Positions 24,499 to 41,348 of a stretch of 64,000 nucleotides of DNA are shown here, piece after piece. The DNA comes from Streptacidiphilus rugosus AM-16. GTDB lineage: Bacteria > Actinomycetota > Actinomycetes > Streptomycetales > Streptomycetaceae. Where the stretch lies: contig NZ_JQMJ01000004.1 of assembly GCF_000744655.1 (NCBI RefSeq), forward strand, positions 3,906,001 through 3,970,000, in the 5' to 3' direction. A program made the position numbers and the translations under genes. The notes under the pieces are model-generated. The model was not told the origin of the DNA. It saw nothing but the letters and a program-made list of their open reading frames with translations, and searched no databases. Each line of letters begins with the position of its first letter. Positions within the stretch are counted from its first letter, which is position 1.

Positions 24499-24939
24499 CC
24501 ACCACACCGAAGGTGTCCGTCAAAGCGGAGCAAGCTCACAGAGCACCACTCAGGAGATCTGCTGGGAGGAGTACCTCTCGGGAGGCCGCACAGGTCCGCT
24601 CTGCTACCCGAACGCGAAGCTGCCGACGGGATCGAAGCCGGCCCTCCAGAGCGTCTTCGGCCCCGCCTCCCTGGACCGCTGGGTGACCGTTCTCGCCGCC
24701 GCCGGCGAAGAGCCACGCGCCCTGACCTGCGGTGGCATCCGCATCGGGGTCACCAAGGTCGGCGAGCTCAAGACACCCGGCGGCGCACCTCTCGCCCTGT
24801 ACACCTACATCGCTCCCTGGCTCGCCGACGGGCCGCTCCAGCTAGAGGTGGTCCGCGCGAACGGGGTCGCCACCGACCGGATCACCCTTGATCCCGTGGA
24901 GCCCGACCAACCACGTGACTACGTCAGGAACTGTGGCTA

Positions 24940-25475
24940 GGGCGCATATCGAGTCGTGATTAAGAGGGGGCTTGGGCCAGCTCTTTGATCCAGATCATGG
25001 AGGCGCGTAAGTGGAGGCCGGCGAGGTAGCTCTCGGGGGTCTTGTCGTACCGGGTGGCGATGCCTCGCCAGGCCTTCAGCTTGTTGATCAGGCGCTCGAC
25101 GGTGTTCCGCTCCTGGTAGAGCTCGGCGTCGTGGCCGACCGGACGACCGCCCGTGCGGCCCTTCCTCCTCCGGTTGGCGGCCTGGTCGGTCTTCTCCGGA
25201 ATCACAGCCTTGATCTGGCGTTTTCGCAGGTGGGTTCGGTTGCCGCGGGCCGAGTAGGCCTAATAGGCGCCCAACGGGTCCGCGGACCCGGATCTTCTTC
25301 AGCACCGGGATGAACTGCGGGCTGTCCGCAGCCTGTCCTGCGGTCAGGATGAACGCCAGTGGGCGGCACTTGCGGTCCGCGGCCAGGTGCACCTCGCTGG
25401 TCTGTCCGCCCCGGGACCGACCCAGGAGAGCCTGCTTCAGTCGCCCCGCCGCTGCGCAGTCACCAAGAGAAACGG
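24940..25475 (-). pseudogene. IS5-family transposase 3' fragment with terminal repeat
   Basis: Minus strand: RSRGGQTSEVHLAADRKCRP near 25440, a deletion/frameshift near 25260, then IPEKTDQAANRRRKGRTGGR, ERNTVERLINKLKAWRGIA and stop TAA at 24960. The terminus at 24940-24963 begins GGGCGCATATCGAGTCGTGA and resembles the one at 22581. The N-terminal domain is absent. Together with the 5' fragment this marks at least two independent IS5 insertions. Confidence 0.8.
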
Positions 25476-25539
25476 TGTCTGAGCATTGCTCACCGCTCCG
25501 GCAGATCAAGCCCGATCGGGAGCGGGATACCGCCGGGTC

Positions 25540-25815
25540 AGCGTCCCCGCCGCAGGTCCCTCCAGAAGGCGCAGCGCGCCCCCTCGTACTCGGTGGCGAC
25601 CGTGGTGTCCGGGCCCCTCTTGACGGCGGGGAAGAGGGAGCAGTTCGCCAGGGCGCGCTCGCCCTCGTCGGAATGGAAGCCGGCGACGTAGACCGGGGCC
25701 TCGACGTTGGAGGCGTCGGGGGCGACGCGGGTGATGGCCGCGCCGACGTCAGAGCGGCCGACCAGGACAACGGGGCCGTCCACGCTTCCGGCGAGGGTGG
25801 TCCAGCCCAGTCCCT
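25540..25815 (-). pseudogene. Alpha/beta hydrolase fragment
   Basis: Minus frame reads GPVVLVGRSDVGAAITRVAP, NVEAPVYVAGFHSDEGERAL. This corresponds to the nucleophile-elbow region of alpha/beta hydrolases, but the expected GHSYGG is GRSDVG, and there is no start, lid or catalytic His. Adjoins the truncated IS5 piece. Confidence 0.65.
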
Positions 25816-25854
25816 GAGGTTTGGCGATGGCCCGGCCCCACCTATCCTCAAGAC

Positions 25855-26337
25855 ATGAGCACGGTCGAACCGGGCGCGACCCCGGACTGGCGGACAGAGG
25901 GCGTGCGGGTCGTTCCGGGCGACGCACTCGACCCGAACACTCCGCAGACGCCGGGGATGCACCGAGCCGCCGCGGTCACCCAGGCGCGAACGGGCTCGCA
26001 CAAGCTGTGGGCCGGCACGGTCACCATCCACCCAGGGGCGAGGACGGGGGCACACCATCACGGCGAGCTGGAAAGCGTGATCTACGTGATTCGCGGTCGT
26101 GCCCGCATGCGGTGGGGGGTGAACCTGGAGTTCACGGCCGAGGCCGGGGCCGGAAGCTTCATCTTCGTCCCACCGTTCGTACCCCACCAGGAGATCAACG
26201 CCCTCGACGACCAGCCTCTCGAGTGCGTCGTGATCCGCAGCGGTCAGGAACCCGTCGTGGTCAATCTGGACATCGCCGGGATCGCCGAGCCCGAGACCGT
26301 TCCGTGGGTCGATCCCGCCCACCCCACAGTCGGCTGA
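25855..26337 (+). CDS. Single-domain cupin
   Basis: 160 residues with cupin motif 1 GARTGAHHHGELESVIYVIR (metal-ligand HxH and Glu) and motif 2 FVPPFVPHQEINALDDQPLE (His). A small metal-binding beta barrel; cupins of this size act as isomerases, oxygenases or ligand sensors. ATG at 25855; the region before it is weakly Shine-Dalgarno-like. No operon partner is evident. Confidence 0.85.
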   Translation: MSTVEPGATPDWRTEGVRVVPGDALDPNTPQTPGMHRAAAVTQARTGSHKLWAGTVTIHPGARTGAHHHGELESVIYVIRGRARMRWGVNLEFTAEAGAGSFIFVPPFVPHQEINALDDQPLECVVIRSGQEPVVVNLDIAGIAEPETVPWVDPAHPTVG

Positions 26338-30496: not shown

Positions 30497-33400
30497 TCAG
30501 GGCAGGGTCCAGTTCTGGGCGCCGGTGCCGTTGCAGGTGTAGAGCTGGAGTTGGGTGCCGGGTGAGGTGGAGGAGCCGGGGTCGTCCAGGCACTTGCCGG
30601 ACTCGGGGTTGATCAGCGAGCTGTTCGCGCCCGGTTTCCACTGCTGCGCGCCGGTGCCGTTGCACGTGTACCACTGGACGAGGGTGCCGTTCGCGGTGCC
30701 GCTGGAGGCGACGTCGAGGCAGCCGCCGACCACCCGCACGGTGCCGTCGGACTCGACCGTCCACTGCTGGGCAGCGGTCCCGTTGCAGCCCCAGATCTGG
30801 ACCCGGTTGCCGTTGGACGCGGCGCCGTTGTTGTCGTCGGCGCACAGGTTCGATCCCGCTCCGGAGACGATCGCACCGGTCGGCGGGGCGCTCGCGGTGG
30901 TGAACCCGATCGCGAAGATGTGCAGAGCGCCCTTGGAGGTGTCGGAGGGCAGGCGGACGTCGGCGACCGTCTTGCCGGAGGTCAGAGCCACGGGTGCGGT
31001 CGCGAAGACGTAGGTCTTCACGGGGTCGGTGGAGGCGCCGGCATGGTTGCGGTAGCTGGCGGTCACTGCGGTGGTATTGCCGGAGAGCGGTGTGGCCGAG
31101 CCGCCGTTCAGCGTCCAGTCGGAGAGGGAGACGGCCATGGACTGGCTGGTGCCGTCGGTGTAGTCGACGGTGGCGGTGCCGGTGGAGGGGCCGTTGTTGG
31201 AGGAGCCGAGGAAGGAGATCGCCCCGGTGCCCGAGATCGGGACGGTCTGGCCGTTGGCGGTGTAGTTGTCGGGCTGCCCGGCTGCGGCTCCGGGCCAGGT
31301 GAAGGAGGTTCCGGCGGCACTGACCGTGGAGCCCGGGTTGACTCCGGCGGCGGACAGGGCGGCGGCGGAGTAGCTGTAGCCGCTTCCGTCGAAGTCGGCC
31401 GACGAGGAGGCGGAGTCGGCCGATACTCCCGTGTTGGTGTAGCCGGGCGCGCCGGGGTAGGAGGGGGGTGCGGCGGATGCGGCGGACGCCCAGGCGGAGT
31501 TCGCCGTGGTGCCCAGGGTGAAGGTCAGCGTGCCGCCGCTGGTGATGCTGCCGGTGGGTGCGGCCGCGCTGTTCCATGCCGAGCCGTTCCAGCTGGCCGA
31601 CTGGACATAGGGGGCGTTGTCGGCGGCGTTGTCGCCGTTGACCGTCAAGGTGTTGCCGCTGGGCAGGGTGACGACCGCCTGGGTGAACAGCGGGCTGCCG
31701 AGTGCAAGGTCGGAGGTGCCGGGTGTCTCCGGGTACATCCCCAGGGCCGACCACACGTACCAGGAGCTCATCTCGCCGAGGTCGTCGTTGCCGGCCAGGC
31801 CCGAGGGGCTGTCGGTCCAGATCTGGTCCTGGACCTGCCGCACGACCTGCTGGGTGAGGTAGGGCCGGCCGATGTAGTCGTACTCCCAGGGGATGTTCAG
31901 GCTGGGCTCGTTGCCGAGGTCGGTGTAGCCGTTCGCGCCGGTCAGTGAGGACAGGTCGGTGGTGAGGTAGTTCGCCATCGCCGCGTTGCCGCCCATCGCG
32001 GTCGCCAGCCCGTGCACGTTGAACGGCACCATCGGCGTGTACTGCCAGGCGTCGCCCTCGACGAAGTTGCTGCCCGAGGTCGCGGAGAATCCCGCCGTCC
32101 ACGAGCCCGACTTGTCACGGGGCTGGATGAACCCCGTTCCGGCGTGGAACAGGTTGCGCCAGTCCTGCGCCCGGTTGGCGAAGGCGGTCTGATTTGTGGT
32201 GTCGCCGAGCGCGCCGGCCAGGGCCGAGACGGCGAAGTCCGCCGTGTCGTACTCGAGTGTCGTGGAGGCGGGGCCGTAGAAGTTGCAGCAGCCGTAGCTT
32301 CCGTCGCTGGGCAGGTAGCCGAGCTGCTCCAGGTAGGTCAGGCCGGGCCGGTTGTTGTTGGCGTCGGTCGCCTCCGCGACCATGTCGGTGAGCGCGGTCG
32401 CGCTGTCGAAGGCGGTGGCCCCGAAGGCGTGGTAGTCGGCGAGGATGGCGTCGGCGGGATCGCCGACCATCACGTAGGTCTCGCCGTTGTTCTCGGACCA
32501 CTTGGGGAACCGGCCGGTCTGGGCGTAGTCGTCGACCATCGACTGGGCGGTGTCCGAGGCGGCCTGCGGGTCGATCAGCGCCTCGAGTTGGGCCTGCGAA
32601 CGGTAGACGTCCCAGCCGGAGTAGTTGGCGTAGGCGGCGCCGTGGCCGGAGTCGACGACGTGGGTCTTGGAGTCGAAGCCGTAGTACTGGCCGTTGGTGT
32701 CACTGATGACGTTGGGGTGGAGCAGCGAGTGGTACAGCGCGGTGTAGAAGACCGTCTGCTGAGCGGTCGTGCCGCCCGCGACGGAGACCCGGCCGAGGAG
32801 GGAGTTCCATGCCTGCTGGGCGCTGTTCGCGGTCCCGGTGAAGTTCCATCCGGGATTCTCGGCCGTTCGGTTGGCCACCGCGTTCGCGGTGGAGACGTAG
32901 GAGATGCCCACCTTGGCCTGGACGACCTGCGTGCTGGTGGTGTTGAACGTGACGTAGCCGTCCTTGGCGGCCGTCTGCGGGGTGGCGGTGCCGGCTTTCT
33001 TCGGCGGGGCCCCGTGGAGGGTGGGGTGGTTCTGCCGTTCCGCCTGGCTCTGGCCGGGGCGGGCGCCTGCTGCCGGGGGTTCCGTGGCTTTGACGGCTTG
33101 TGTGCCGTTGGAAGTGAACGGCTGGTCGAAGACCATGTCGAAGTAGACCGTGTAACTGTTGCTCGCGCCGCAGAAGGAACCGCTGGTGACCTGTCCGCTC
33201 ACCTCGTTGTTGTTCACGACGGTGAACTGGGTGTTGGAGGCACCGTTCTGACTGCCAGCCAGTTTGAAGACGAGATTGGCCTGGGCGGTGGCCGGAAAGG
33301 TGAAGCGCGCCATGCCGCTGCGGGTGGTGGCGGTGAGTTCGGTCTTGACGCCGTTGCTCAGCGACACCGCGTAGGAGCCGGGCGAGGCGGACTCGGCGGA

Positions 33401-33799
33401 GTGGGAGAACCCGTCCGTGGCGCTGGTGTTGACGGAGCCGACGGTCGGCAGGACAGGGATGTCGCCGGCGGCGCCGCATCCGGGACCGGCGATGTGGGTG
33501 AGGCTGAACCCGGTGATCGAGGAGTCCTTGTACTCGTATCCGCCGCCGTCCGGCCGGGACGGAGTGTCAGGACTCCACTGCACCATGCCGAACGGCGCAT
33601 CGGCCCCGGGGAAGTCGTCGGCGGAGTTCGACGTGCCGATGAACGGGTTGACGAGCGAGGCCGGCGCGGTGACCAGCGCCGGACGGGCGTGACCCGCCGG
33701 CCGTGACTGCGCCGACGCGGGGACGGCGCCGGTCGCCAGCAGCACCCCGGCTGCCAGCAGGGTTAAGGCGCCCCGGCGCCTCTGACGTGGGTGTCCCAT
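30497..33799 (-). CDS. Secreted GH92 alpha-mannosidase with CBM13 domain
   Basis: 1,100 residues. Signal peptide to about residue 32 (LTLLAAGVLLATGAVPASA), GH92 N-terminal beta domain beginning ASLVNPFIGTSNSADDFPGA, (alpha/alpha)6 catalytic domain with GGGYEY, FPKWSENNGE, DLGNEPSLNIPWEYDYIG (catalytic Glu region) and GLAGNDDLGEMSSWYVWSAL, a Ser/Ala-rich beta domain, and a C-terminal ricin-type CBM13 with QQWTV, QQWKP and QNWTL QxW repeats. GH92 enzymes are calcium-dependent exo-mannosidases releasing mannose from mannosides. I start at the ATG at 33799, which has GGGAG upstream, not the one at 33832. LacI-type operators lie at 33853 and 34037. Confidence 0.95.
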   Translation of the reverse strand: MGHPRQRRRGALTLLAAGVLLATGAVPASAQSRPAGHARPALVTAPASLVNPFIGTSNSADDFPGADAPFGMVQWSPDTPSRPDGGGYEYKDSSITGFSLTHIAGPGCGAAGDIPVLPTVGSVNTSATDGFSHSAESASPGSYAVSLSNGVKTELTATTRSGMARFTFPATAQANLVFKLAGSQNGASNTQFTVVNNNEVSGQVTSGSFCGASNSYTVYFDMVFDQPFTSNGTQAVKATEPPAAGARPGQSQAERQNHPTLHGAPPKKAGTATPQTAAKDGYVTFNTTSTQVVQAKVGISYVSTANAVANRTAENPGWNFTGTANSAQQAWNSLLGRVSVAGGTTAQQTVFYTALYHSLLHPNVISDTNGQYYGFDSKTHVVDSGHGAAYANYSGWDVYRSQAQLEALIDPQAASDTAQSMVDDYAQTGRFPKWSENNGETYVMVGDPADAILADYHAFGATAFDSATALTDMVAEATDANNNRPGLTYLEQLGYLPSDGSYGCCNFYGPASTTLEYDTADFAVSALAGALGDTTNQTAFANRAQDWRNLFHAGTGFIQPRDKSGSWTAGFSATSGSNFVEGDAWQYTPMVPFNVHGLATAMGGNAAMANYLTTDLSSLTGANGYTDLGNEPSLNIPWEYDYIGRPYLTQQVVRQVQDQIWTDSPSGLAGNDDLGEMSSWYVWSALGMYPETPGTSDLALGSPLFTQAVVTLPSGNTLTVNGDNAADNAPYVQSASWNGSAWNSAAAPTGSITSGGTLTFTLGTTANSAWASAASAAPPSYPGAPGYTNTGVSADSASSSADFDGSGYSYSAAALSAAGVNPGSTVSAAGTSFTWPGAAAGQPDNYTANGQTVPISGTGAISFLGSSNNGPSTGTATVDYTDGTSQSMAVSLSDWTLNGGSATPLSGNTTAVTASYRNHAGASTDPVKTYVFATAPVALTSGKTVADVRLPSDTSKGALHIFAIGFTTASAPPTGAIVSGAGSNLCADDNNGAASNGNRVQIWGCNGTAAQQWTVESDGTVRVVGGCLDVASSGTANGTLVQWYTCNGTGAQQWKPGANSSLINPESGKCLDDPGSSTSPGTQLQLYTCNGTGAQNWTLP

Positions 33800-33852
33800 G
33801 TCTGGAGCTCCCTTCTCGTTTGCCAAGCTCATGACAGGCCTTGCGGCAGTTT

Positions 33853-33864
33853 GACAACGTTGTC
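33853..33864. promoter_or_regulatory. LacI operator, GH92 promoter copy 1
   Basis: Perfect palindrome GACAACGTTGTC, 54 bp upstream of the GH92 start. The CG-centred LacI-type palindrome recurs at six other positions around the sugar-uptake genes. Confidence 0.8.
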
Positions 33865-34036
33865 GTGGCGCAAATCGTGGCCCTACCCGGTCAAACTGTC
33901 AAGGCAGCCAACGCAACGAGCCCACGGGGATCACCAGGACCTGCGCCCGCGCGGCCGTCGGCTCTCGCCCGAATCCTTCTTGCCGAGCCCAAAGGCGACC
34001 TCCGCCAGGGTCTCGACGCCAGCCGGGGGGTCATTT

Positions 34037-34050
34037 TGATAACGTTGTCA
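34037..34050. promoter_or_regulatory. LacI operator, GH92 promoter copy 2
   Basis: TGATAACGTTGTCA, one mismatch from symmetry with the consensus. It is 184 bp from the first copy, allowing repression by looping; that is inference. Confidence 0.7.
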
Positions 34051-34051
34051 C

Positions 34052-34180
34052 AACAGCGCGGCATCCGGATCGCATCGCGTTGAAGACGTCGCGCAGGTCG
34101 ACTTTCGCCGGCCGGCCGGTGGACTTCCGGGCGCAGAAGCGGACGAGACGGCCTCTGTCCCCGGTGAGGGCGGCCGCAGA
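34052..34180 (-). pseudogene. Possible IS5-type transposase N-terminal scrap
   Basis: Minus strand reads KSTGRPAKVDLRDVFNAMRS then GCRAVV, reminiscent of the 'GRPxxxDLRxVxxAI...SGC' start of IS5-type transposases. Very short; the assignment is tentative. Confidence 0.3.
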
Positions 34181-34283
34181 GTTCTCACTTACGGCAGAAC
34201 CGTCTGAAAGCGGCAGGAATGGAGGACTCCCCCGCTGCTCAAGGCGGTTGCCGGTCCGTAACGCGGTCGGGTCGCGGGAGCGA

Positions 34284-35240
34284 TCAGAACCGCGCGGCGG
34301 ATTCCTGTCCGCGCTGATCGGCTCCGAAGGCCGCGAGCTCCTCGACGGTGGGCGGATCGGCGCCGGGCCGGGTGCAGGTGATGGCCGAGACCAGAGAGGC
34401 CTCGTCCAGCACGTGACCCAGCTCGTCGCTTGCGATCCGGCGCAGTGACCCGGAAGCGTCGGCGCCGAGGAGCCCGCGGCGATCGAGGGCGCCGAGCAGG
34501 CCCGCCGTGAAGGCGTCACCCGCGCCGACCGTGTCGGCGACCGGCACCCGCAGGGCGGGCCGCTCGACCGGGCCCGCGGCGCAGAGCCCGAACGAGCCCT
34601 CGCCGCCCAAAGTCACGATGACCAGGGAGGGGCCGAGGGCGAACCATTCCCGGGCGACGTCGGCGGCGCCGCGTCCCGGGTGCAGCCAGGCGAGGTCCTC
34701 GTCGCTGACCTTGACCACGTCGGCGAGGGCGACCAGAGCCTCGATCCCCGGCCGGGCCTGTTCGGGCGAACCCATCAGTGACGGGCGGCAGTTGGGGTCG
34801 TAGGAGATCGTGCAGCGGCCTCGGGACCGCTCCACCAGGGCGCGGACCGAGGTCGAGCCTGGCAGGAGCGTCGCCGCGATCGAGCCGGTGTGCAGGCACG
34901 CCGTGGCGGGGTGGACCTTCGGATCGGGATCCTGCGGGAATCGCCAGGCGATGGCGAAGTCGTAGCTTGCGACGCCGTTCGCATCGGGGCGCGCGAGCGC
35001 GGTGCTGGTGGGCAGGTCGTCGACCGGGTCGTCGAGGAGGCGGACCCGGCTCCCGGCCAGGTGCCGGGCCAGCATCTCGCCGTGGGGGTCGGCGCCGTAG
35101 CGGGTGAGCAGGGCGACATCGACGCCCAGGCGGCCCAGGCCCACGGCGACGTTGGCGGGGCTGCCGCCGGGATGGGCGGCGCTCGCGCCGTCGGGGGACT
35201 CGACCAGGTCGATGACGGCTTCGCCGACGACAGAGATCAT
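34284..35240 (-). CDS. PfkB-family sugar kinase (fructokinase-like)
   Basis: 318 residues. Opens MISVVGEAVIDLV, has the PfkB signature 1 region GGSPANVAVGLGRLGVDVAL near residue 25 and the ATP/anion-hole motif DTVGAGDAFTAGLLGALDR with catalytic Asp near residue 238. ATG at 35240 has AAGGA upstream and lies 33 bp after the AGE-isomerase stop, so the two are cotranscribed. In this setting it most probably phosphorylates fructose delivered by the isomerase. Confidence 0.9.
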   Translation of the reverse strand: MISVVGEAVIDLVESPDGASAAHPGGSPANVAVGLGRLGVDVALLTRYGADPHGEMLARHLAGSRVRLLDDPVDDLPTSTALARPDANGVASYDFAIAWRFPQDPDPKVHPATACLHTGSIAATLLPGSTSVRALVERSRGRCTISYDPNCRPSLMGSPEQARPGIEALVALADVVKVSDEDLAWLHPGRGAADVAREWFALGPSLVIVTLGGEGSFGLCAAGPVERPALRVPVADTVGAGDAFTAGLLGALDRRGLLGADASGSLRRIASDELGHVLDEASLVSAITCTRPGADPPTVEELAAFGADQRGQESAARF

Positions 35241-35273
35241 GCGGTGTCCTTGGGTGGCTCGGGTCGGACGGGT

Positions 35274-36524
35274 TCAGGCCAGGGAGCGGCGCAGCGCCTC
35301 GGCCATCGCGGGTACGGCGGGCAGGCGCGGGATGAGGGTGGCCTGGACGGCGTGGTAGGCGTCGGGCTTGCCGGGCCATACGGTCGCGGCGGGCCGGTTG
35401 TCCGGCGTGAGCTCGTGGTGCCAGCTGCCGTGCTCGCGGTCGAGGAAGAAGTCGGCGGCGTGCTGCCACAGGCCCTGGTACCAGCGCTGGTATTCGTCGT
35501 TGCCGGTCGCCTTGTGCAGGACGGCTGCGGCGCCGATCGCCTCGGCGAGGACCCAGTGCATTCGGGCCCGGACCACCGGGTGGCCGTCCCAGTCGACGGT
35601 GTAGACGAATCCGGGCTCGCCGTCGGCGTGCCAGCCGTCGCGGATCGCGGCGTCGAACAGTGCCTCGGCGTCCTCCAGCATCCAGGCAGGCGGGTTGGGC
35701 AGGCTCGCGCGCAGGGCGAGCATGAGGCGGGCCCATTCGAACCAGTGGCCGATGGTGGCGCCGAAGGGCCGGAACGGGTCGTCGAGGTGGTCGTCGTTGT
35801 ACTCCAGGACCGGCCGCCAGTCGGCGTCGAAGTGCTCGACCAGGCGCCAGTTCGCCGCGCGGGCGTGTTCGTGGACCACGAACCGGCAGATGCGCAGGGC
35901 CCGTTCGTGCCAGACGGGCTGCCCGGTCACGTCGCCGGCGGCGAGGAAGGCCTCGACGGCGTGCATGTTGCTGTTGGCGCCCCGGTAGGACTCGCACCAC
36001 TGCCAGGCCGGGTCGAAGGACTCGACGAGCAGGCCCGCCTCCTCGTCCCAGAAGTGCTGCTCGATCACCTCCAGCGCCTCGGCCAGCAGTTCGGCGGCCC
36101 CCGGCCGCCCGGCGGCCGCAGCGCTGGAGGCCGCGAGAACGACGAAGGCGTGCGCGTAGGCGGATTTGCCCCCGGCCCGTGGACGCCCCTCGCGGTCCAC
36201 ACCGGTGAACCAGCCCCCGTGCTCGGCGTCGCGCAACAGGCCGCGCAGCGCTGCCAGTCCGTGGTCGACCAGCTCGGCCGCGTCCGGGTCGCCGAGGAGG
36301 TGGGCAAGGGCGAAGACGTGCGTCATCCGGCAGGTGATCCACGTGTGCACCGGGCCGTCGCCCTGGACGACGCCGTTCTCGTCGAGCCAGCCGAACCCTC
36401 CGCCCGGCAGCCGGGCCCCGCGGGCGAAGCCCAGCAGCCGGTTCTGCTCCGCGACCAGCCACTGCGCGTCGCCGGGCATGCCGGTCGGTGCGGGCACGTG
36501 GTCGATGATGGATTCGGAGGTCAT
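35274..36524 (-). CDS. AGE-family sugar isomerase (mannose isomerase-like)
   Basis: 416 residues of the N-acylglucosamine 2-epimerase (alpha/alpha)6 fold: PGGGFGWLDENG, TWITCRMTHVFALAHLLGD, GGWFTGVDREGRPRAGGKSA, EHFWDEEAGLLVESFDPAWQ (as IEQHFWDEE), YRGANSNMHAVEAFLAAGDV and DREHGSWHHELTPDN include the conserved Arg, Trp and His of the D-mannose/sulfoquinovose isomerase (YihS) branch. The reaction inferred is mannose to fructose. AGGAG precedes the ATG at 36524. First gene of a two-gene operon with the kinase, behind two LacI operators. Confidence 0.9.
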   Translation of the reverse strand: MTSESIIDHVPAPTGMPGDAQWLVAEQNRLLGFARGARLPGGGFGWLDENGVVQGDGPVHTWITCRMTHVFALAHLLGDPDAAELVDHGLAALRGLLRDAEHGGWFTGVDREGRPRAGGKSAYAHAFVVLAASSAAAAGRPGAAELLAEALEVIEQHFWDEEAGLLVESFDPAWQWCESYRGANSNMHAVEAFLAAGDVTGQPVWHERALRICRFVVHEHARAANWRLVEHFDADWRPVLEYNDDHLDDPFRPFGATIGHWFEWARLMLALRASLPNPPAWMLEDAEALFDAAIRDGWHADGEPGFVYTVDWDGHPVVRARMHWVLAEAIGAAAVLHKATGNDEYQRWYQGLWQHAADFFLDREHGSWHHELTPDNRPAATVWPGKPDAYHAVQATLIPRLPAVPAMAEALRRSLA

Positions 36525-36614
36525 CGTGCTCCTAGGGATAGAGGCCGGTGGGGGCGGGCGGCAGCCGGCCACCGAACGAGCGGCAGCGGCCGCCGAAGTG
36601 GATGCAACCGCAGG

Positions 36615-36647
36615 GATAGCGTTGTCATGGCGATAGACAACGTTGTC
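36615..36647. promoter_or_regulatory. Pair of LacI operators before isomerase-kinase operon
   Basis: GATAGCGTTGTC at 36615-36626 and perfect GACAACGTTGTC at 36636-36647, with centres 21 bp apart (two helical turns), 90-125 bp upstream of the isomerase start. Confidence 0.8.
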
Positions 36648-36726
36648 GGCCCATCCAAGGGTCAGCATTTGCGGAGCGGACGGATTTGTCAACGCCCACG
36701 CGGCGGGCGAACTGCTCAGCCCCAGC

Positions 36727-37761
36727 TCAGGGCTGGTGTTCGCCCGAACCGCGGGGGATCAGCCGGGTGGGGACCACGATCCGCTGGACCTGCGCCTGCT
36801 CGCCGCGCATCCGGCGGAACAGCAGTTCGGCGGCCATGCGGCCCATCAGGGCGGGGTCCTGGGCCACGACGGTGACCGGCACGGGGAGCATGTCGGCGAG
36901 TTCGAAGTCGTCGAATCCGATCAGGGCCGGCCGCTCCGGGCGCGGAGCGAGGTCGCGCAGGGCAGCGACGGTGGTGCGATTGTTTCCGCAGATCAGGGCG
37001 GTCACGGGGGCAGGCCCGGAGAGCATCGCGTCCAGGGCGAAGCGGATCCCGATCGGGTCCGGCTTGCCCATCGCGATCCAGGTCTCGTCGACGGCGAGGC
37101 CGGCCGAGGCCATGGTCTCGCGGTAGGCGGCCAGGCGCTCGGCGGCGGTGAAGATGTCGGGGGCGTCGCCGATGAAGCCGATACGGCGGTGACCCTGGCG
37201 CAGCAGGTGGCCCACGGCGTCCGCAATGCCGCCGCGGTTGTCGGCGAGGACGGTGTCCACCTCCAGGCCCGGCATCGGCCGGTCCACGCTCACCACCGCA
37301 GTACCCGCCGCCAACTCCGGTGCCAGGTAGCCGTGGTCGACGGAGGTCGGCACCACGATCAGTCCGTCGACGCGGCGGGCGCAGAAGTCGAGCGCCACGT
37401 CCCGCTCCCGCGTGGCGTCCTCCGCCGACGAGCCGGTCAGCAGCAGCGAGCCGTGCGCCCGCGCGACGTCCTCGACGGCCCGGCTGAGCGACGAGTAGAA
37501 CGGGTCGGCCAGGTCCTCCAGGACCAGGCCCACGGAGCTGGTACGGGCGCCCTGGCGCAGCAGCCGTGCGCCGTCGTTGCGTCTGAAGCCCAACTCCTGG
37601 ATGGCCGCCAGGACCTTGGCGCTGGTCTCCTCGCTGACCCCGTGCTCGCCGTTGACCACGCGTGACACCGTCTTGAGCCCGACCCCCGCGGTGGCCGCGA
37701 CGTCCTTCATGGTCGGACGCGCGGGCGTCGGGGAGATCGGCTGTTCCGCGTTGGCTGGCAT
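36727..37761 (-). CDS. LacI-family repressor of the mannoside locus
   Basis: 344 residues. N-terminal HTH TMKDVAATAGVGLKTVSRVV with hinge NGEHGVSEETSAKVLAAIQELGFRRN; periplasmic-binding-like effector domain from SVGLVLEDLADPFYSSL to PVTALICGNNRTTVAALRD and ALIGFDDFELADML. ATG at 37761 puts the HTH ~22 residues in, normal for streptomycete LacI proteins. Located between the isomerase operon and the ABC importer it should control; imperfect operators in its own promoter (37825-37847) suggest autorepression. Confidence 0.93.
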   Translation of the reverse strand: MPANAEQPISPTPARPTMKDVAATAGVGLKTVSRVVNGEHGVSEETSAKVLAAIQELGFRRNDGARLLRQGARTSSVGLVLEDLADPFYSSLSRAVEDVARAHGSLLLTGSSAEDATRERDVALDFCARRVDGLIVVPTSVDHGYLAPELAAGTAVVSVDRPMPGLEVDTVLADNRGGIADAVGHLLRQGHRRIGFIGDAPDIFTAAERLAAYRETMASAGLAVDETWIAMGKPDPIGIRFALDAMLSGPAPVTALICGNNRTTVAALRDLAPRPERPALIGFDDFELADMLPVPVTVVAQDPALMGRMAAELLFRRMRGEQAQVQRIVVPTRLIPRGSGEHQP

Positions 37762-37824
37762 CTGCTCCAACCGTCCCTTCCGGCGACAAGGCCTGTGGAT
37801 CTGCAGTGTTGGCTGCCCAGCATA

Positions 37825-37847
37825 GATAACGTTGCCACAACGTTGCC
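37825..37847. promoter_or_regulatory. LacI operators in the LacI gene promoter
   Basis: Two overlapping weaker copies: GATAACGTTGCC (37825-37836) and CACAACGTTGCC (37836-37847), 11 bp apart. Both share the AACGTTG core. Confidence 0.6.
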
Positions 37848-38145
37848 GTGCAGCCCCCGGGATCGTGATCCCCCGTGCCGGGGCCGGGATCAGCATCGGG
37901 CAGGCCGACTTCAAGGAGGCCACGTGTCAGCATGACGCGACCCCCACCAAGGTCCGCCGCTGCCCCCGGCGCTCACTTCCCTCCTGGTCAGGCCCCTGCA
38001 CGCAGAGTGAGGACCGTTCGCCGCGGCTCGGGTCCGCCGTCGGGATCGGGTCCCGCCCTCGCGGGGCCGGGCCAGGACGTCCCGGCCGATCGGTCGCAGC
38101 AGTCTCTTGACACTCTCCACACACCTGCGTTCCACTTCTCCGGCA

Positions 38146-38157
38146 GACAACGTTGTC
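38146..38157. promoter_or_regulatory. LacI operator of the ABC importer operon
   Basis: Perfect GACAACGTTGTC, 158 bp before the GTG of the ATPase gene. A near copy lacking one base, GACACGTTGTC, follows at 38174. Confidence 0.75.
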
Positions 38158-38314
38158 ACTGGACGCCGGCCCGGACACGTTGTCGGGAGGCGTCGCCATC
38201 ACGCCGCACCAAGGGGCCGACGCTCGGGCCCGGAACGTCGCACCGCAGGCCGGTGCGACGGATCCGCCCCGTGCCGGGAGGCAAGTCCCCACCGAACGAT
38301 CCAAGGAGGAACCC

Positions 38315-39145
38315 GTGTCGGAGCCATTGCTGGAAGCACGCGGCGTGGTGAAACAGTTCGGCCACGTGCAGGCCCTGCAGGGGGCCGACTTCACCGCCTA
38401 CGCCGGTGAGGTCGTCGCCCTGATCGGTGACAACGGCGCGGGCAAGTCCACGCTGGTCAATGTGCTGTCGGGGGTCATCGCCCCGGACAAGGGCGAGGTT
38501 CTCCTGGGCGGCGTGCCGGTGAGGTTCGCAGGCCCCCAGGACGCTCAGCGTCAGGGTGTGGAGACGGTCTATCAGGACCTCTCCATGGCACCGGATCTGG
38601 ACGCGCCCACCAACCTCCACCTCGGCCGCGAGATCCTGCGCGGCGGACTGCTGGGGCGCCTCGGCGTCCTGGACCGGCCCGCGATGCGCACCGCGGCGGT
38701 CAAGGCCTTCGCCGAGCTCGGGGTGACCCTGAAGGATCCGACCGCGCCCGTGGCAACGTTGTCGGGCGGCCAACGTCAGTCCGTCGCGGTCGCCCGGGCC
38801 GTCGCCTTCGCCAACAAGGTCATCTTCATGGACGAGCCGACCGCGGCCCTTGGCGTCGTGCAGCGCGCCCGCGTCCTGGAGACCGTCCGCCGCGTCGCCG
38901 AGCGCGGCATCTGCGTGGTGCTCATCAGCCACAACATGCCCGAGGTGCTGTCGGTCTCCGACCGCGTCGAGGTGCTGCGGCTGGGCCGGCGGGTCGCCTC
39001 CTTCAAGGCCGCCGACACCAGCATCGAGGAACTCGTCGGCGCCATGACCGGCTCGCTCGACCGCGACCTGGAGAACTTCGCTGCCACCGGCGCCACCCGC
39101 TCCACCGGCTCCGAGGGCGCCCGCAACACGGAGGAAGCACGATGA
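38315..39145 (+). CDS. Sugar ABC importer ATPase, single-domain (FrcA-like)
   Basis: 276 residues with one ABC domain: Walker A LIGDNGAGKSTLVNVL near residue 40, Q-loop VYQDLS, signature LSGGQRQSVAVARAV, Walker B VIFMDEPTAALG, switch His in ISHNM. Typical ribose-class importers carry two fused ABC domains (~500 residues); the single-domain form matches the FrcA fructose/mannose/ribose type. GTG at 38315 with AAGGAGGA upstream excludes the longer frame. Ends ATGA overlapping the permease start. Confidence 0.9.
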   Translation: MSEPLLEARGVVKQFGHVQALQGADFTAYAGEVVALIGDNGAGKSTLVNVLSGVIAPDKGEVLLGGVPVRFAGPQDAQRQGVETVYQDLSMAPDLDAPTNLHLGREILRGGLLGRLGVLDRPAMRTAAVKAFAELGVTLKDPTAPVATLSGGQRQSVAVARAVAFANKVIFMDEPTAALGVVQRARVLETVRRVAERGICVVLISHNMPEVLSVSDRVEVLRLGRRVASFKAADTSIEELVGAMTGSLDRDLENFAATGATRSTGSEGARNTEEAR

Positions 39146-40191
39146 CCACCACCACGACCGAGGGCGTCCAGCAGACCGGCACCCCGCAGCAGGCCCCCAG
39201 GAGCGGCATCCCGCCGTGGCTGCGCAAGGTCGCCTCGATCAGCGAGGTGTGGACCTTCGTCATCCTGGTCGCCCTGGTCGCGGTCTTCTCGACAGCCGCC
39301 CCCGGCAAGTTCTTCACCGCCTACGACCTCACCCAGATCGCCGTGAACGCGGCCATCTACCTGGTCCTCGGCGTCGGCATGACCTTTGTCGTCATCACCT
39401 CCGGCATCGACCTGTCCATCGGCTCCGTCCTGGTACTCGCCGCGGTCGCCGCCGGTGAGTACAACCTCCACAACGGCGGACCGGACGCGAACTGGACCAC
39501 GGTCGCTGTCTGCATCGCCATCGCCCTCGTCGTAGGCACGCTGTGGGGCGCACTGCAGGGCCGGCTGGTCGCGACCGGCAAGGTGCCGCCGCTCATCGTC
39601 ACCCTCGGCGGACTGGGCACCGCGCTCGGCATCGCCGAGCTGATCACCGGCGGGCAGGACCCGGCCGGTGCTGCCGCCTCCAACCTGCAGAACACCCTCG
39701 GCTACGGCAAGCTCTTCGGCATCCCGTGGCTCGTGATCCTCGCCGCCGCCGTCACCCTGGTCTTCGGCCTCGTGCTCACCCGCACCCGCTTCGGCACCTA
39801 CACCCTCGCCATCGGCTCCAACGCGGCCGCCGGACAGCGCGCCGGCATCCGGGTGGGCCGGCACCTGGTCAAGGTGTACGCGCTGATGGGCCTGCTGGCC
39901 GGACTCGGCGCGGTGATGTGGCTCGCCTCCTTCGGAACCACCTCCATCGCCGGCCACTCCAGCGACAACCTCAAGGTCATCACCGCCGTCGTCCTGGGCG
40001 GCACCAGTCTTTTCGGCGGACGCGGCAGCGTGCTCGGCACCGTCATCGGCGTCTTCATCCCCGCCGTGCTGACCACCGGTCTGATCGTCGTCGGCGTCCA
40101 GCAGTACTGGCAGGACGTGGCGGTCGGCATCGTCCTGGTCGCCGCCGTCTACGTCGACCAGGTGCGTCGCAAGACCCGCGAACGCGTGTGA
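39142..40191 (+). CDS. Sugar ABC importer permease (RbsC/FrcC-like)
   Basis: 349 residues with about ten hydrophobic segments; contains the family hallmarks VGMTFVVITSGIDLSIGSVL (near residue 78), VATGKVPPLIVTLGG, YAIGSN-like TLAIGSNAAAGQRAGIRV and AVVLGGTSLFGGRGSVLGTV. Starts inside the ATPase stop (ATGA). Homodimeric channel subunit of a sugar importer. Confidence 0.93.
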   Translation: MTTTTTEGVQQTGTPQQAPRSGIPPWLRKVASISEVWTFVILVALVAVFSTAAPGKFFTAYDLTQIAVNAAIYLVLGVGMTFVVITSGIDLSIGSVLVLAAVAAGEYNLHNGGPDANWTTVAVCIAIALVVGTLWGALQGRLVATGKVPPLIVTLGGLGTALGIAELITGGQDPAGAAASNLQNTLGYGKLFGIPWLVILAAAVTLVFGLVLTRTRFGTYTLAIGSNAAAGQRAGIRVGRHLVKVYALMGLLAGLGAVMWLASFGTTSIAGHSSDNLKVITAVVLGGTSLFGGRGSVLGTVIGVFIPAVLTTGLIVVGVQQYWQDVAVGIVLVAAVYVDQVRRKTRERV

Positions 40192-40328: not shown

Positions 40329-41348
40329 ATGTCCAGAACCCCCACCCGCCGCCACCTGCTCGCCGTCGCCGTCGCGACCGTCGCCCTGGCCACCACCGCC
40401 GCCTGCAGCTCCTCCGGCAGTACCGCCTCCGGGTCCGGCTCGGGCTCCTCCGCCGCGGCCGGCGGCACCTCCGGCAAGAAGATCGCGCTGATCACCGGCG
40501 TGAAGTCCGACCCGTTCTACATCACCATGACCTGCGCCGCGCAGGACGAGGCGAAGGCCAAGGGCCTGCAGTTCATCGCCGACGGCTCCGCGCAGTGGGA
40601 CGTCTCGGTCCAGCGCCCGCTGATCGACTCCGTCGCCGCGTCGCAGCCGAACGGCCTGATGATCTCGCCGGTCGACACCAACGCCCTCACCCCGTCGCTC
40701 AAGCAGATCCAGGGCGCCGGCACGAAGATCGCACTGGTGGACACCTCCGTCACCGATCCGTCCGTCGGCATCAGCCGCATCTCCTCCGACAACGAAAAGG
40801 GCGGCCAGGTCGCCGCCGACGCGCTGGCCAAGCAGATGGGGGACAAGGGCTCGGCCATCGTCATCAGCGTCAAGCCGGGCATCTCCACCACCGACGACCG
40901 CATCAAGGGCTTCACCGAGGAGATGACCAAGTACCCGAACATCAAGGTGCTGCCGACCCTCTACGACAACGACGAGCCCGCCACCGCGGCCTCCCAGATC
41001 CAGTCCACCCTGGCCGCCCACCCCGACCTCGGCGGCGTCTTCGCCGGCAACACCAACACCGGCCAGGGCATCGCCACCGGCCTGTCCCAGGCCGGCAAGC
41101 AGGGCCAGGTCAAGGTCGCGGCCTTCGACGCCGAGCCCGACGAGGTCGCCGCACTGAAGAACGGCAGCCTCCAGGTGCTGGTCGCCCAGGACCCCGCCGC
41201 GATCGGCCGCGAGGCCGTCGACCAGCTGGCCGCAGCCTTCAACGGGCAGCCGGTCCAGGCGTCCGTCGGGACCACGATGGTCGCCATCACCAAGGACAAC
41301 ATCAACGACCCCGGCGTCTCCAAGTACGTCTACAAATCCGGCTGCTGA
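40329..41348 (+). CDS. Sugar-binding lipoprotein of the ABC importer
   Basis: 339 residues. Signal peptide with lipobox TAAC near residue 26 (VATVALATTAACSSSG), Ser/Gly linker, then a periplasmic-binding-protein type 1 fold: KKIALITGVKSDPFYITMTC, QPNGLMISPVDTNALTPSL, ISRISSDNEKGGQVAADAL, VFAGNTNTGQGIATGL, VAAFDAEPDEVAALKNGSLQ. Belongs to the ribose/fructose-binding class. CAGGAG upstream. Order ATPase-permease-binding protein is a complete importer; the sugar is inferred to be mannose or fructose from the locus. Confidence 0.92.
   Translation: MSRTPTRRHLLAVAVATVALATTAACSSSGSTASGSGSGSSAAAGGTSGKKIALITGVKSDPFYITMTCAAQDEAKAKGLQFIADGSAQWDVSVQRPLIDSVAASQPNGLMISPVDTNALTPSLKQIQGAGTKIALVDTSVTDPSVGISRISSDNEKGGQVAADALAKQMGDKGSAIVISVKPGISTTDDRIKGFTEEMTKYPNIKVLPTLYDNDEPATAASQIQSTLAAHPDLGGVFAGNTNTGQGIATGLSQAGKQGQVKVAAFDAEPDEVAALKNGSLQVLVAQDPAAIGREAVDQLAAAFNGQPVQASVGTTMVAITKDNINDPGVSKYVYKSGC

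Follow-up and report, generated by a model that had tools for sequence, protein, structure and literature searches.

In Streptomyces sp. SirexAA-E, as reportedly described by Ohashi et al. in 2021, the regulator SsManR responds to mannose and mannobiose, and a unique 12-bp palindrome is said to lie at four places, two of them before alpha-1,2-mannosidase genes. According to the accessible parts of the respective papers, the LacI-family protein GlyR2 of Clostridium thermocellum is a mannobiose-responsive repressor of a mannanase gene (PMC10766802), a survey of LacI regulons lists ManR groups for mannose and mannosides (PMC4052901), and the lmuKAIZYX island of enterohaemorrhagic E. coli encodes an ATP-binding cassette (ABC) importer related to mannose importers, a D-lyxose/D-mannose isomerase that yields fructose, and a kinase active on fructose, all controlled by the two-component system LmvR/LmvK (PMC10128022). 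Here we analyze a 64,000-nucleotide stretch of the Streptacidiphilus rugosus AM-16 genome (9,002,860 bases), positions 3,906,001-3,970,000 of contig NZ_JQMJ01000004.1, which we call the window and whose coordinates are used throughout. In it, a lacI-family gene is surrounded by genes for a glycoside hydrolase family 92 (GH92) mannosidase, an AGE-family isomerase, a PfkB-family kinase, and an ABC sugar importer, with copies of a 12-bp palindrome, GACAACGTTGTC, between them. Judged from the sequences, this cluster is very probably a regulon for the utilization of mannose and mannosides under a local ManR-type LacI-family repressor, and one LacI protein and one operator appear to control jointly the release of mannose from glycans, its import, and its entry into metabolism. 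Among the open-licence papers that our searches listed, we noticed none on this 12-mer (two that came up with its letters as text were judged unrelated by title and opening of the abstract), and we make no claim that the motif is unpublished.

Putative operator sites and clustered genes

The palindrome has an AACGTT core with a central CG and copies near lacI, which fits the pattern of LacI-family operators. A first-pass annotation of the window had listed seven sites, always intergenic and far denser than chance would allow. Six of its positions were correct, and the seventh, given as 34037, should be 34038, since 34037 is the start of a 14-mer. The seven sites (three exact, one with one mismatch, and three with two mismatches) all fall between genes, in the regions 33833-34283, 36525-36726, and 37762-38314 (Table 1), and the distances given for the operator pairs, 21 bp for 36615/36636 and 11 bp for 37825/37836, were right as well. 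At up to two mismatches, 7 sites were seen in 4.3 kb where 0.26 were expected (Poisson P ~1e-8). The exact 12-mer occurs at 3 places in the whole genome and GAYAACGTTGTC at 4, every one of them in the cluster, compared with 0 places for a backwards-read control of the latter. The first-pass annotation had stated that an equal frequency in coding DNA across the genome would speak against its proposal; we found exact copies only in the cluster, and the 15 other one-mismatch places were scattered, 12 within called genes and 3 outside, with no two less than 20 kb apart. At up to two mismatches, 543 places were found genome-wide versus 236 for the backward control, so looser variants alone prove little outside the cluster. 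A degenerate pattern admitting all seven sites returned 12 places in the genome, 8 of them in the cluster, namely, the seven sites and a one-mismatch copy at 38752 (GGCAACGTTGTC). This eighth copy, absent from the first-pass list, lies within the gene for the importer ATPase, where its bases encode part of the ABC signature (V-A-T-L-S-G-G-Q), and we rejected it as a coincidence.

The post hoc choice of motif was controlled by ranking all 4096 12-bp palindromes and by 60 Markov resamples. In the three intergenic regions, GACAACGTTGTC ranked first of the 4096 (7 occurrences at up to two mismatches), and the best count for any palindrome in the resamples was at most 5.

Table 1. Coordinates of the clustered genes and of the putative operators (window numbering)
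Feature	Position	Strand	Remarks
GH92 exo-alpha-mannosidase, predicted secreted, with C-terminal ricin-B-type lectin domain	30497..33832	-	PF17678 219 bits, PF07971 489.5 bits, PF00652 92 bits
Putative operator, exact GACAACGTTGTC	33853..33864	.	20 bp before GH92 start codon
Second putative GH92 operator GATAACGTTGTC, one mismatch	34038..34049	.	14-mer TGATAACGTTGTCA begins at 34037; 185 bp from first
PfkB-family sugar kinase, probable fructokinase	34284..35240	-	PF00294
AGE-family aldose-ketose isomerase, probable D-mannose isomerase	35274..36524	-	PF07221 392.8 bits
Putative operator variant GATAGCGTTGTC, two mismatches	36615..36626	.	Ahead of isomerase-kinase operon
Putative operator, exact	36636..36647	.	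Ahead of isomerase-kinase operon, 21 bp from 36615 site
LacI-family regulator, 344 aa	36727..37761	-	Start set at ATG 37761; PF00356 61 bits (cut-off 27), PF13377 103.9 bits
Weak putative operator GATAACGTTGCC, two mismatches	37825..37836	.	63 bp before lacI; candidate autoregulation site
Weak putative operator CACAACGTTGCC, two mismatches	37836..37847	.	74 bp before lacI, 11 bp from 37825 site
Putative operator, exact	38146..38157	.	157 bp before importer ATPase start
Importer ATPase, single ABC domain, 276 aa	38315..39145	+	PF00005
Importer permease, ribose type	39142..40191	+	PF02653; ribose permease model 164 bits, under cut-off
Importer sugar-binding protein	40329..41348	+	PF13407; best solved match 5dkv, 215 bits

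On the minus strand, the genes follow one another in the order lacI, isomerase, kinase, GH92 mannosidase, and the importer genes (ATPase, permease, binding protein) run divergently from lacI on the plus strand. The regulator has the N-terminal helix-turn-helix domain (PF00356) and the periplasmic-binding-protein-like sensor domain (PF13377) that membership in the LacI family requires. Both GH92 domains of the mannosidase (PF17678 and PF07971) exceed their Pfam cut-offs, and the closest solved structures are GH92 alpha-1,2-mannosidases; its secretion was called by inspecting the N-terminal sequence by eye. The isomerase aligns over nearly its full length with the NCBIfam D-mannose isomerase model NF051846 at 541.9 bits, under the cut-off of 600, and the kinase scores 135.8 bits against the fructokinase model NF006957, whose cut-off is 450; each function is therefore called only probable. 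The best NCBIfam matches of the ATPase are galactofuranose/arabinose/ribose-type ATPases, none of which reaches its cut-off. Elsewhere in the genome (G000:C4:1191500-1196480, L070), a second importer, with an ATPase 77% and a permease 72% identical to those of the window, lies beside a LacI paralog of 50% identity whose recognition helix (SPMTVSRVV) is different and which has no such operator. An open reading frame at 24937-26322 of the window holds, by eye, a stretch resembling a transposase fragment.

The module, the regulator, and the motif in other genomes

The strongest argument for a link of the isomerase, kinase, and importer with the regulator is the recurrence of this functional set, in shuffled order, in other genera. 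Of 396 genomes of the phylum, 21 gave matches to the isomerase, roughly half of which were weak; of 394 genomes of the family, 9 did, two of these matches being weak or partial. The isomerase-kinase pair had first seemed unique to the window species, as 1 of 14 same-genus genomes had the isomerase, a view that we dropped because five other genomes carry the module. In these five (G014, G016, G031, G041, and G047, from two other genera), the isomerase gene lies beside a LacI ortholog (57-58% identical) and the kinase gene, divergent from the importer ATPase gene. Four of the five loci were also found to have the permease and the binding protein; the fifth (G047) lies on a contig of only 6,730 bases, which ends within the kinase gene. 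Each locus has two operator-like 14-mers between its divergent arms: TGACATCGTTGTCA with TGACACCGTTGTCA in three loci, TGACATCGATGTCA with TGACATCGTTGTCA in one, and TGACAACGATGTCA twice in one. Because the module is grouped with LacI and with operator pairs in all five of these genomes, the link is no accident of the window locus. The recognition helix of the five LacI proteins reads GIKTVSRV, versus GLKTVSRV in the window protein. Across these loci (L298-L302, from G031, G016, G041, G047, and G014), operators with a changed center-proximal base accompany the L-to-I change in the helix, a possible covariation of operator and regulator. AGE-kinase pairs are also found away from this LacI (L303-L306), which means that the pair moves independently as well. 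At one of these loci (L303:1159-5612), a different LacI (43%) lies near an isomerase-kinase pair 73% and 61% identical to that of the window; the palindrome GATAACGTTATC lies upstream, and this may be a sister regulon whose operator has shifted.

LacI matches were obtained in 110 of the 120 genomes searched, relatives of the same group being 58-78% identical and those from Streptomyces 60-67%. The named relatives compared were the best 80 loci of a longer list, many from Streptomyces and hence not independent. A site with at most one mismatch lies near lacI in 76 of these 80 (75 exact), from 400 bp before to 40 bp after the start of the match; L197, L212, L247, and L255 lack one. As an exact word, GACAACGTTGTC is found in 75 of the 80 lacI upstream regions and the next best palindrome in 2. 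An exact-word search of 72 of the 120 genomes, with orthologs defined by an E value of 1e-105 or better, found the 12-mer in 41: in 31 of the 35 genomes with a LacI ortholog versus 10 of the 37 without (counted by hand). Within the family, the figures are 24 of 28 versus 2 of 15 (Fisher P 5e-6, a value inflated by shared descent). The four family genomes that have the ortholog and lack the exact word carry a one-mismatch site upstream of a GH92 gene (G012) or variant operators (G014, G016, and G031). A one-mismatch copy lies before lacI, at a distance like that in the window, in five same-genus genomes (G002, G006, G008, G009, and G011), and the recognition helix is GLKTVSRVVN in 28 of the 29 LacI proteins, that of the window included, in which this segment was read, the remaining one having F for L.

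A ROK kinase gene lies within 6 kb of lacI in 49 of the 80 best named relatives, instead of or beside the isomerase-fructokinase pair. Two Kitasatospora loci (L182 and L183) have GH92, importer genes, the LacI ortholog, and two sites, and no isomerase was recognized there. A tentative generalization, to which we give slightly less than even chances, is that mannose use in all these actinomycetes is under one orthologous LacI, whose operator has stayed almost frozen while the catabolic branch beneath it varies. The branch would be a ROK kinase by lacI in Streptomyces-type genomes and an isomerase-fructokinase operon in the window species and two other genera, where the operator (TGACATCG, TGACACCG, or TGACAACGAT forms) and one helix residue (L to I) would have changed together.

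We then turned to the genes that exact sites precede in other genomes. Forty stretches from 14 genomes were read, 25 from ten same-family genomes and 15 from four order-level genomes. The 25 represent every exact site of those ten genomes except the ones adjoining lacI, of which one (L122) was read; the exact sites of the remaining genomes were read only where near lacI. The gene caller uses the first possible start, so that several genes begin too early and some sites appear inside a called 5' end. In 16 of the 25 same-family stretches, the site precedes a mannan-hydrolase gene, on a different contig from lacI or more than 300 kb away in all 16: GH92 in 11 (L100-L103, L106-L109, L111, L123, and L124), each time upstream of the homologous part of the protein, GH76 in 2 (L110 and L120), GH47 in 1 (L125), and GH5 mannanase, identified via solved mannanase structures, in 2 (L115 and L136). 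GH92 genes with 78-94% identity in G001, G002, G005, G006, G008, and G011 have an exact site just upstream. The other same-family stretches hold a GH3 gene (L113), a putative glycoside hydrolase family (L121), lacI with a ROK kinase (L122), a LacI paralog with importer genes (L104), a protein with F5/8-type domains (L112), a methyltransferase, likely by chance (L105), and, in L126, nothing to which an assignment could be given. In two genomes of genus g11 (L114 and L137), an exact operator stands at the start of genes for family-5 solute-binding proteins, perhaps of manno-oligosaccharide importers.

The order-level genome G081 has sites at GH92 with a ROK kinase (L116), at genes for a lectin-domain protein, GH3, and a solute-binding protein, and two inside coding sequence (L119 and L127); in G077, the neighbors are an enoyl-CoA hydratase (L138) and a gluconolactonase/melibiase-like pair (L139). 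Sites inside coding sequence proper (L119, L127, and L134, all order level) were not counted as operators. Within the genus, the Pfam GH92 model found 34 genes in 14 genomes, and 30 of the 34 loci were read. A site with at most one mismatch lies upstream of GH92 in 15 of 23 cases in the other regulator-bearing genomes (of the 23, L172 is truncated at the end of its contig), in 1 of 2 in the genome of the window, and in 0 of 5 in G003, G004, and G013, which lack the LacI ortholog (Fisher P 0.013 versus 15 of 23). The regulon reading of the first-pass annotation thus gains support, since the motif tracks the LacI ortholog, adjoins lacI in relatives, and mostly precedes mannan-degrading genes elsewhere.

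A predicted mannose regulon and its alternatives

From sequence comparisons, we infer binding by LacI, repression rather than activation, the nature of the inducer and of the transported sugar, and the exact enzyme activities. Proteins of the LacI family are generally repressors that a sugar releases. As long as inducer is absent, a LacI dimer would sit on the palindrome TGACAACGTTGTCA and its variants before gh92, the isomerase-kinase operon, lacI, and the importer operon and keep expression low. A small amount of mannose or of a mannose-containing disaccharide would enter, bind the sensor domain, and free the repressor. Since mannan hydrolases make up most of the readable family targets of the regulator, the inducer is most likely mannose or mannobiose. 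Secreted GH92 would then trim alpha-mannans or N-glycans, the mannose released would come in through the ribose/fructose-type ABC importer, the isomerase would convert it to fructose, and the PfkB kinase would phosphorylate this to fructose 6-phosphate, which would enter glycolysis. The distances of the sites from the starts of gh92 and lacI (20 bp, and 63 and 74 bp, respectively) suit repression and autoregulation. Elsewhere, the genome also has genes for a mannose-6-phosphate isomerase of type I and for a ROK kinase that shares 65% identity with one adjoining lacI in a relative, so the isomerase route probably adds to the usual route rather than replacing it; no site with at most one mismatch was found near that ROK kinase gene.

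Several observations weigh against a mannose regulon of this kind. In the window, 3 of the 7 sites carry two mismatches, and two of these three overlap by one base, so that simultaneous occupancy by two dimers is hardly possible. A scan of the region for sigma-70-like promoters, other promoter types being outside its scope, found none, and how binding would block transcription is therefore not visible. DNA looping is not claimed and lacks support, because the spacings of the site pairs (185 and 21 bp in the window, 176-198 bp in the five other-genus loci, other values in relatives) do not share a helical phase, as calculated by hand. The effector and the enzyme activities rest on family membership, with isomerase and kinase under their NCBIfam cut-offs. 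Of the GH92 genes in same-genus regulator-bearing genomes, 8 of 23 are without a site, as is the second GH92 gene of the S. rugosus genome (G000:C3:295690-297096, L174). The exact copies in 10 of 37 genomes without the ortholog count here too, as do an exact copy just before a LacI paralog (46%) in G002 and one 0.1-0.9 kb behind a paralog of ~48% in the order-level genomes G074, G077, G079, and G085. Finally, the exact sites of G073 and G074 (LacI 56-59%) number seven, and in the six stretches read around them no mannan gene is adjacent; the neighbors are ECH, 3HCDH, GGDEF, WhiB, epimerase, and HAF-repeat genes, and the motif in these two genomes is therefore uninformative about mannan.

Chance or base composition as the source of the motif cluster could draw on a first scan of the window at up to three mismatches, which gave 43 matches versus 23 expected. 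The density of exact and one-mismatch copies, the reversed control, the palindrome ranking, and the conservation across genera contradict this explanation, which we regard as refuted. A different matter is which protein binds. The genome scored 17 LacI-like matches, and the motif before or behind paralogs of 46-48% in some relatives would agree with binding by another LacI paralog, or by several that share the operator, the neighboring LacI being only one of the regulators. We hold this to be quite unlikely: the exact motif is found nowhere else in this genome, the closest paralog in it (50%; the only paralog compared) has the helix SPMTVSRVV and no such palindrome before it, and across the family the presence of the motif follows the ortholog.

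The substrate can be questioned as well. Importer subunits that resemble the ribose type and a kinase that resembles fructokinases would suit a regulon for fructose or another ketose, with the isomerase working in reverse or on another sugar; this is unlikely, as the mannan hydrolases that repeatedly follow the sites in relatives release mannose and the best NCBIfam model for the isomerase is that of D-mannose isomerase. The latter match also bears on a sulfoquinovose route like that of E. coli YihS-YihV, a very improbable reading that starts from the nearest solved isomerases being YihS proteins, one labeled sulfoquinovose isomerase, whose structures align to residues 21-413 of the window protein. 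YihV is likewise a PfkB-family kinase. The window kinase, in contrast, has the fructokinase 7fca as its top solved match at 244 bits versus 36 bits for sulfofructose kinase, and no sulfoquinovosidase, aldolase, or reductase was recognized in the seven clustered genes, to which the scan for them was confined.

A mannose regulon under the local LacI would be nearly closed and testable: a single regulator would act on four transcription units through seven sites within 4.3 kb, and the exact word is absent from the rest of the 9-Mb genome. From it one would expect mannan-degrading enzymes to be under this regulator group in many Streptomyces and relatives, and mannose to be sent via fructose in some lineages, besides or instead of via mannose 6-phosphate. 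The operator might also be used for finding mannan-use genes of unknown function.

Comparison with known systems

The island lmuKAIZYX resembles the window in its route of mannose importer, isomerase, and kinase and differs in being under two-component control, with no LacI repressor; the accessible part of its source mentions no secreted mannosidase (PMC10128022). GlyR2 belongs, like the window LacI, to the LacI family and has a mannan enzyme as a target, as is predicted here, but comes from a different phylum and regulates different enzymes.

The window regulon appears to match the SsManR regulon. A 12-bp palindrome and alpha-mannosidase targets (here GH92) are reportedly common to the two, and the window LacI belongs to an ortholog group whose Streptomyces members have the same site. 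The small number of copies, here 3 exact ones in the genome with one before GH92, is likewise said to be a ManR-type trait. Unlike the SsManR regulon as reportedly described, that of the window has its genes in one cluster, an isomerase-fructokinase operon and a ribose/fructose-type importer among them. If the SsManR regulon is as reported, the clustering and the isomerase-fructokinase and importer operons are new, and the isomerase-fructokinase branch under this operator is what distinguishes the S. rugosus locus.

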